IMG/VR virus record: IMGVR_UViG_3300036859_000726
Coordinates: 1-64,000 of that record
DNA length: 64,000 bases
Origin: a virus
Direction: 5' to 3' (one strand)
Shown: positions 10,588 to 13,596 of the stretch, piece after piece
Layout of the letters: each line of letters opens with the position of its first letter
Numbering within the stretch: position 1 is the stretch's first letter
Program-made: the position numbers and the translations under genes
Notes under the pieces: model-generated
The model's database searches: none
Told to the model about the DNA's origin: nothing
Seen by the model: the letters and a program-made list of their open reading frames with translations, nothing else

Positions 10588-10766
10588 ACTACAAATGTGT
10601 TCGCAGGAATTGCTTCATTCGCGTCGAGACAGAAGGCGATGCATGCTTCAGATGCAAAGAAGTGCAATCTCGAAGGCTGAATGAGCAAATGAGGATTGAG
10701 AAGGCACTTGGCAGAACGCTGCGAGAAGTTTCAGGATATGGCCCTCCAACAGGAAGACTCAAGTGA
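10584..10766 (+). CDS. 60-residue zinc-finger protein
   Basis: ATG 10584 (ATGA overlap with the microprotein). Cys arrangement CX4C (CVRRNC) then CX2C (CFRC) within 20 residues, followed by a basic helix (RRLNEQMRIEKALGRTLREV). A start at 10539 would add 15 residues and has AGGGA upstream; the overlap pattern favours 10584. Confidence 0.6.
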   Translation: MNYKCVRRNCFIRVETEGDACFRCKEVQSRRLNEQMRIEKALGRTLREVSGYGPPTGRLK

Positions 10767-10948
10767 GCTCCAAATTGTTCGCCATGAATGTATCCATCAT
10801 CAAAAAGGATATCGGGCCTGCCACACTTAATTGTGAAGTCGCTGCTCCTGATATGCTAACAGCAATCAACTACACGCTTCAGAGGCTCGCGGAAGAAACC
10901 GCTGTTGCTCTGTACTTTCATAGCGTGATTGAGAAGGTGCCGAGTTGA
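10763..10948 (+). CDS. Small hypothetical protein
   Basis: 61 residues, GTG start inside the previous stop (GTGA); ATG 10784 is an alternative. Looks like one small alpha/beta unit (NVSIIKKDIGPATLNCEV, then an amphipathic helix). Ends 5 bases before the tRNA-like gene. Confidence 0.6.
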   Translation: MSSKLFAMNVSIIKKDIGPATLNCEVAAPDMLTAINYTLQRLAEETAVALYFHSVIEKVPS

Positions 10949-10953
10949 TTTAT

Positions 10954-11148
10954 TGCGGAATAGCTCAGGGGTCAACTGCAGGCGCATCGACGGGTGCGCT
11001 GCTGCAGTGAGCGGGATCGAAAATCGTAGACCAGCTGGCGGGTGCATAGCCTGGGTGCAAACGCTTTGGACGAACCGAGAATCGTGAACGTGAGAGCGCC
11101 AGCCTGATAAGCTGGAGGTCGAGGGTTCGAGTCCTTCTTCCGCTACCA
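10954..11148 (+). tRNA. tRNA-Ile(GAT)-like gene with ~118-nt insertion in the D-loop
   Basis: Acceptor strands GCGGAA (10955-10960) and TTCCGC (11138-11143), T8-A9, D-stem GCTC (10963-10966)/GAGC (11094-11097), anticodon arm CCAGC-CTGATAA-GCTGG (11099-11115, anticodon GAT), T-arm GAGGG-TTCGAGT-CCTTC (11121-11137), then A and encoded CCA (11146-11148). All fits tRNA-Ile except a T:T mismatch at pair 1:72 and a D-loop of 127 nt (10967-11093) instead of 8-11. The insert starts with a 12-bp hairpin (10975-11008: ACTGCAG+GCGCA paired with TGCGC+CTGCAGT). No group I core is visible. It may be a removable intervening sequence or a dead tRNA. Confidence 0.7.
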
Positions 11149-11161
11149 TTGAGGAGTTGTC

Positions 11162-11815
11162 ATGTGGGTTGAGATTGTACCAAGACGAGCAGACTTCTGC
11201 GGAAGTCCACCTTGCCCCTATTGCTACAATTGGAAGGATGGTCCAGACTCGCAGGTCGTGCCTGGCATGTACAAGTTCACTCTTGATATGCTCAACTCGT
11301 CGCCCGAGTCTCTGAAGAAGGGCCAGCTGAAGGAGCTTGAAGCGCTCGCCAAGAAGGTTCACGACGACAAGGTGGCAGCCAAGTCGGCGCCAAAGGTTGA
11401 GCCGCCAGAACTTGACGCAGTTGATATCGGCATGAGCCTGTCAACGCGCATAAACCGCATGCTAAGCCTGAATCGTCCAGTGAAGAAGGTTGAGCCTCGT
11501 TTGCCGACTGTGGATGAGGTGTTCGCAAGGCAGGCAGAGCGAGAGGAAAAGCTGCAGGCTGAATCAAAGGTCAAACAAGAGCGCATAGAAGCTGCTCGTG
11601 AGATCGCTCAGGTGCTCGCGCAGGTCAATCAGGAGAGCAAAGCAAGAGAAGGGCGCTATCTCCTTAACGATATCCCTCCTGATTTCGTGCGCTACTGCCA
11701 ACGAGCCGGTATGGATGATCCAATAGAGATTGCGGAGCGCTGGCGCTACGAGAATGGACAGCGAGAAGCCTCTCGTTACATGGTTGGTTCCAGGGGTAAG
11801 GATCGATACTTCTAA
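11162..11815 (+). CDS. Hypothetical coiled-coil protein with N-terminal Cys pair
   Basis: 217 residues; GAGGAG 5 bases before the ATG, just after the tRNA-like gene. CGSPPCPYCYNW near the N-terminus may bind zinc. Residues ~125-165 are a charged coiled coil (RQAEREEKLQAESKVKQE), and the C-terminus has DFVRYCQRAGMDDPIEIAERW. CPYC matches the glutaredoxin motif, but nothing else does. Unknown. Confidence 0.7.
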   Translation: MWVEIVPRRADFCGSPPCPYCYNWKDGPDSQVVPGMYKFTLDMLNSSPESLKKGQLKELEALAKKVHDDKVAAKSAPKVEPPELDAVDIGMSLSTRINRMLSLNRPVKKVEPRLPTVDEVFARQAEREEKLQAESKVKQERIEAAREIAQVLAQVNQESKAREGRYLLNDIPPDFVRYCQRAGMDDPIEIAERWRYENGQREASRYMVGSRGKDRYF

Positions 11816-13201: not shown

Positions 13202-13596
13202 GTAGATCACTTGGGATGGCTGGTCAAGTTGCGCGCGGCGCATTGAACAAGAATGCGGATGGGTCGCCAAAGATCGCGCGTCGAGAGCTGAACGGCATTC
13301 CTGTATATGAACCATTGAGCTGCAGGCTAGCAAAGCGATCCGACTCCAAGTCCGGCTTCTGCTATGACTGGCGCAGCTATCTGGTCAAGGTCAAGGTTGG
13401 CGAGAAGATCATCTTTGGGCCAATCAATGACTTCAAAACATATGAAGTGGGCGGGCGGCACTTCCAAGAGTCGCTGACCGTCAATGCTATTCGGCAGGCT
13501 ACACAGTGGCGCCGCATAAAGCACAAAGAGCGCTACAGAACAGGGCTGTTCGGCCAGGAAGACGGCTGCTACTTGCTCATCACGAGGGTTGCATAA
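13198..13596 (+). CDS. Hypothetical protein
   Basis: 132 residues from GTG 13198 (GTGA overlap) or 126 from ATG 13216. Contains a beta-rich segment (CYDWRSYLVKVKVGEKIIFG) and a helical, basic end (AIRQATQWRRIKHKERY). Unknown. Confidence 0.65.
   Translation: MSRSLGMAGQVARGALNKNADGSPKIARRELNGIPVYEPLSCRLAKRSDSKSGFCYDWRSYLVKVKVGEKIIFGPINDFKTYEVGGRHFQESLTVNAIRQATQWRRIKHKERYRTGLFGQEDGCYLLITRVA

Follow-up and report, generated by a model that had tools for sequence, protein, structure and literature searches.

A tRNA-Ile(GAT) gene whose D-loop carries an insert of about 120 nt lies at positions 10954-11148 of the window, the whole 64,000-nt stretch of DNA that was analyzed, which comes from a 67.5-kb virus record where this split gene is the sole tRNA signal. 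With somewhat less than even confidence, we favor as the best reading that its RNA is tRNA-like and retains the insert as an extra domain of the D-arm. In favor of a retained domain, the joined halves make up a complete tRNA-Ile in which the main tertiary positions are kept.

The split tRNA-Ile gene and its locus

The preliminary description had placed both halves of a tRNA-Ile(GAT), in order, around a 127-nt D-loop, and a feature-by-feature check of the sequence bore this out (Table 1); the split tRNA pattern has a single match in the window and none in 100 shuffles of it. Joining 10954-10972 to 11093-11148 gave a cloverleaf of 75 nt, which is also the best fold of the joined sequence, with U8, A14, G15, G18-G19, A21, C48, the T-loop, A73, A37, and A38 kept in the sequence. 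The tRNA-Ile identity features A73, GAU, A37, and A38 are all present, as are the acceptor, anticodon, and T helices, the invariant bases, and the CCA expected of a tRNA-Ile(GAT), position 1-72 excepted. Indeed, the sole defect of the joined tRNA is a U1-U72 mismatch, which leaves the acceptor with six pairs; in the gene itself, the D-loop is not of normal length.

ARAGORN found 0 tRNA genes in the uncut window and called a tRNA-Ile for 66 of the 70 alternative joins of the halves. The Rfam tRNA model (RF00005) matched the 3′ half only (31 bits). A tmRNA was ruled out, as the anticodon arm is complete and no tmRNA match appeared in the ARAGORN and Rfam searches, and so was an attP site, which was rejected because the 5′ half pairs too.

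Table 1 Features of the split tRNA-Ile gene and its flanks, in window coordinates.
Feature	Position	Strand	Description
Upstream ORF	10763-10948	+	61 aa; GTG start overlaps the stop of the preceding ORF; 5 nt between its end and the tRNA
5′ part of tRNA-Ile	10954-10972	+	TGCGGAATAGCTCAGGGGT; acceptor 5′ strand, U8-A9, D-stem GCTC, A14-G15, G18-G19, U20; acceptor pairs with 11138-11144 (6/7)
Acceptor 5′ strand	10954-10960	+	TGCGGAA, then T8-A9
D-stem 5′ strand	10963-10966	+	GCTC
D-loop	10967-11093	+	127 nt
Insert	10973-11092	+	120 nt, separating tRNA positions 20 and 21; limits approximate to within a few nt
Long hairpin opening the insert	10975-11008	+	14 bp with a 2-nt bulge; in both free and cloverleaf-forced folds
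3′ part of tRNA-Ile	11093-11148	+	A21, D-stem GAGC, anticodon arm, variable loop, T-arm, acceptor 3′ strand, A73, encoded CCA
D-stem 3′ strand	11094-11097	+	GAGC
Anticodon arm	11099-11115	+	GAT at 11106-11108
Variable loop	11116-11120	+	AGGTC
T-arm	11121-11137	+	
Acceptor 3′ strand	11138-11144	+	then A73 (11145) and CCA (11146-11148)
Downstream ORF	11162-11815	+	217 aa; without known family; GAGGAG (ribosome-site-like) ahead of the ATG

The gene occupies the gap between the two flanking ORFs, of which the upstream one is probably translated. No promoter or terminator was found at 10954-11148, so the split tRNA RNA presumably belongs to a longer transcript. The kin of the window phage are phages that infect bacteria, Caulobacter phage RW having 41% identity in the portal and 50% in the terminase. 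Relatives were reached through a neighboring 315-aa protein (~25-47% identity) and the terminase (~50%), and the split tRNA is absent from them; the 217-aa ORF, used as another route, yielded no relatives. Most of the terminase kin are without tRNA genes, and none has the tRNA-Ile of the window.

Two further observations were made in the window and its kin. An imperfect direct repeat of ~50 nt (GATGCGGGTGGGT...TCGCGCGTCGAGA) has copies at window positions 13245, 15034, 16210, and 17677, which lie in differing reading frames or span ORF starts. In a terminase relative (L156, 1501-1574), ARAGORN calls a tRNA whose anticodon loop (ttca) has eight bases and which might decode four-base codons.

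The insert and D-loop inserts in other viral tRNA genes

The limits given for the insert are those of the most economical exon join (GGGT/AGAGC), the exact join being ambiguous by a few nucleotides. Positions 20 and 21 of a tRNA mark a D-loop site where length varies naturally. The hairpin that opens the insert, first described as 12 bp, is in fact longer (Table 1), and the insert alone folds slightly better than its shuffles (z = -1.5). The near-duplicate CGA(A/G)AATCGT noticed earlier was not significant, as 342/1000 shuffles score as high, and neither was a tandem duplication within the insert. A second, decayed tRNA inside it gave no Rfam signal.

A search for relatives with the same insert, as suggested in the preliminary description, found none in phage or plasmid records, nor in 30 terminase-related records; hence, the insert of the window is without covariation of its own. 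Rfam searches of the insert up to E = 10 returned no relevant family and no group I or group II intron, in agreement with the earlier remark that a group I core is absent. No bulge-helix-bulge across the junctions was seen in a strict-form scan, a motif found by chance in 31/500 shuffles.

Pattern scans for long-D-loop tRNAs in 2.9 million viral contigs returned 31 raw matches at gaps of 20-50 nt and 63 at 51-81 nt. Once tandem tRNAs had been taken out, 21 distinct viral tRNA genes remained, their D-loop inserts measuring 20-71 nt. The acceptor has 7/7 pairs in 20 of these 21 genes, the isotypes comprise Ile, Lys, Glu, Arg, and Gly (the anticodons AUU, CUA, and UGA occur too), and each of the 21 is either missed or misread by ARAGORN. 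Scanning for gaps of 110-140 nt added one probable case, L335 (acceptor 6/7). With their tRNA form and short variable loop, L335 (UAA anticodon, 129-nt insert), L277 (UGA, 71 nt), and L255 (CUA, 58 nt) are possible suppressors or noncanonical tRNAs. The window shares the architecture of the viral set, with an acceptor of 6/7 pairs, GGGT kept, one 5′ half only, and G18-G19 and A21 kept.

The strongest example is a tRNA-Ile(GAT) whose insert is 63 nt long, found in Lactobacillus phage Lb (L262), in a Lactiplantibacillus pentosus plasmid, and in contig L268. Between Lb and L268, 6 of the 22 insert pairs vary, none is broken, and 2 are changed on both sides; one anticodon-stem pair is also changed on both sides, and one of the two versions has a broken acceptor pair. 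Although it is based on two sequence versions, this comparison is direct evidence, in this family, for selection for structure on insert and tRNA alike. No further copies of this gene were found in 398 Bacillota genomes.

Judging from the 21 genes across several isotypes and from the pairing kept in the Lactobacillus phage family, retained D-loop domains appear to be a recurrent viral tRNA variant, with the window among the largest. D-loop inserts were seen in 0/299 Bacillota genomes, where the corresponding normal-loop pattern catches only ~4-5 tRNAs per genome, too few to establish an enrichment in viruses over cells. Matches to Ile(GAT) in genome contigs were set aside because they have another architecture with their own complete tRNA (one cut by the contig end). 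In these, a complete tRNA-Ile(GAT) is preceded upstream by its own 5′ half in one or two partial copies, which lead into a structured element, in a first group of mostly Gastranaerophilales (L190, L177, L182, L204, L220, L222, L173, and L175) and in a second of Patescibacteria and relatives (L178, L189, L205, and L215). In the first group, the element contains a GCTCAGG/CCTGAGC stem as well as hairpins that show compensatory changes. The upstream arrangement could be a tRNA-regulating leader or a tRNA-derived repeat.

Cloverleaf cost and competing readings

When the insert is left in, folding the window RNA into the cloverleaf takes 5.5 kcal/mol more than its best fold, the worst value of the set, versus 0-3.2 kcal/mol in the 21 viral genes and 2.4 in L335 by this crude measure. 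Since the energy model omits tertiary contacts, modifications, and proteins, this value is to be taken as a hint. Shuffled versions of the window insert matched or beat the real one in 74% of cases, in a test that has low power for short inserts. In the predicted fold of the uncut RNA, the anticodon arm and the acceptor helix form regardless, and the D and T stems do not. The proposal that CCAGCTGG (11031-11038) competes with the anticodon stem did not hold up, as it is not predicted to win and the pair probability of the stem is 0.80-0.97. Together, the modeled cost and the U1-U72 mismatch hint at reduced odds of normal tRNA function for the window RNA, which makes this copy less convincing as a working tRNA.

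The preliminary description had left three options, of which the disabled tRNA stands as a strong rival on account of U1-U72 and the poor compatibility of insert and cloverleaf, and the removable insert gained no positive support. We consider it quite possible, though short of probable, that a recent insertion broke a phage tRNA-Ile gene whose decay has just begun, as the mismatch would suggest, and whose RNA has no role. The insert is indeed no better than shuffled sequence at permitting the cloverleaf, its folding energy is ordinary, codon use is mainly ATC and so implies no obvious need for a tRNA-Ile(GAT), and the kin do without the tRNA. However, all other paired or invariant tRNA positions are intact, the gene persists in a tightly packed block, and the insert has landed exactly where D-loop length is tolerated, sparing G18-G19 and A21, which would be rare for a random insertion; moreover, another phage family maintains such an insert with conserved pairing.

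That the 120 nt are excised and the halves ligated into a normal 75-nt tRNA-Ile would fit the well-formed joined tRNA, which is its own best fold, and the uncut RNA, in which no D and T stems are predicted. Archaeal introns are also known at positions 20/21 (PMC4090602). The lack of any group I, group II, or bulge-helix-bulge signature nevertheless makes a removable intron unlikely. The kin of the window phage infect bacteria, which are not known to have the splicing endonuclease of bulge-helix-bulge introns, and we count this against removal as well. An assembly or recombination artefact in a metagenome contig would account for the single record, no second copy having been seen, but is highly improbable: the tRNA exactly fills the space between two ORFs and breaks no reading frame, its halves match one another in the acceptor and D-stem, and finished genomes contain similar genes (Lactobacillus phage Lb and the L. 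pentosus plasmid).

For a retained domain, which we prefer, the points on the other side are the insert without relatives, the 5.5 kcal/mol cost, U1-U72, and the terminase kin without this tRNA. In such a scheme, a phage tRNA-Ile(GAT) gene would have gained an RNA domain of ~120 nt at positions 20/21, within the variable stretch of the D-loop. The gene would be transcribed within its compact block and the ends matured in tRNA style, by way of an RNase P site and the encoded CCA. Since the domain would stay in the RNA, the product would be tRNA-like and ~195 nt long, its acceptor end and anticodon arm intact. The window would then be an extreme case of the viral tRNA genes with D-loop extension domains.

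As to its role, we can only guess at a spare tRNA, at a decoy that diverts tRNA-cutting host defences, which can be countered by phage tRNAs (PMC10264068, PMC11555353), or at a tRNA-Ile with a blocked corner, as the insert sits at the IleRS editing determinants, which in the D-loop are G16, D20, and D21 (PMC9976931). Less assured is the broader proposal, possible but on the unlikely side in our view, of an unannotated class of bacterial-virus tRNAs with a selected, function-changing D-loop domain, of which the window would hold one of the two largest members seen. Such a domain would alter tRNA action, for instance by blocking IleRS editing at the corner or by turning the RNA into a decoy for defence nucleases. 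If the domains are retained and functional, the tRNA corner can bear a sizeable RNA domain, and these genes would open a direct route to the purpose of phage tRNAs. The tRNA-Ile cases would lend themselves especially well to testing, as the positions read in IleRS editing are the very ones disturbed by the insert.

Comparison with known systems

We found no published description of viral tRNA genes with D-loop inserts in the open-licence papers searched, and the accessible text of a review of non-canonical tRNAs (PMC7609411) mentions neither phages nor an enlarged D-loop. tRNA finders assume a short D-loop, so annotation passes over insert-bearing genes, in finished phage genomes too. Bacterial and phage tRNA genes can likewise be interrupted by group I introns, but these lie in the anticodon loop or arm and have a catalytic core, whereas the insert of the window has no Rfam intron match. 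Archaeal non-canonical introns at 20/21 share the insertion point of the window; they carry bulge-helix-bulge sites according to a review (PMC4090602) and have a splicing endonuclease, while the window shows no such motif.

Ordinary phage tRNAs (RF00005), including those that evade host defences (PMC10264068, PMC11555353), resemble the window in their phage gene block, their acceptor, anticodon, and T arms, and their encoded CCA. Their D-loop is 4-12 nt long (PMC5733544) versus 127 nt in the window, which ARAGORN missed. The viral insert tRNAs (Lb/L262, L268, L237, L255, L273, L277, L335, and others) differ from the window in that their inserts are mostly 20-71 nt long and most are compatible with the cloverleaf, and no sequence shared with its insert was seen. 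They have in common with it an insert at the variable sites of the D-loop, G18-G19 and A21 kept, and a complete 3′ half, and with many such genes in viruses, a retained extra domain is the natural comparison for the window.
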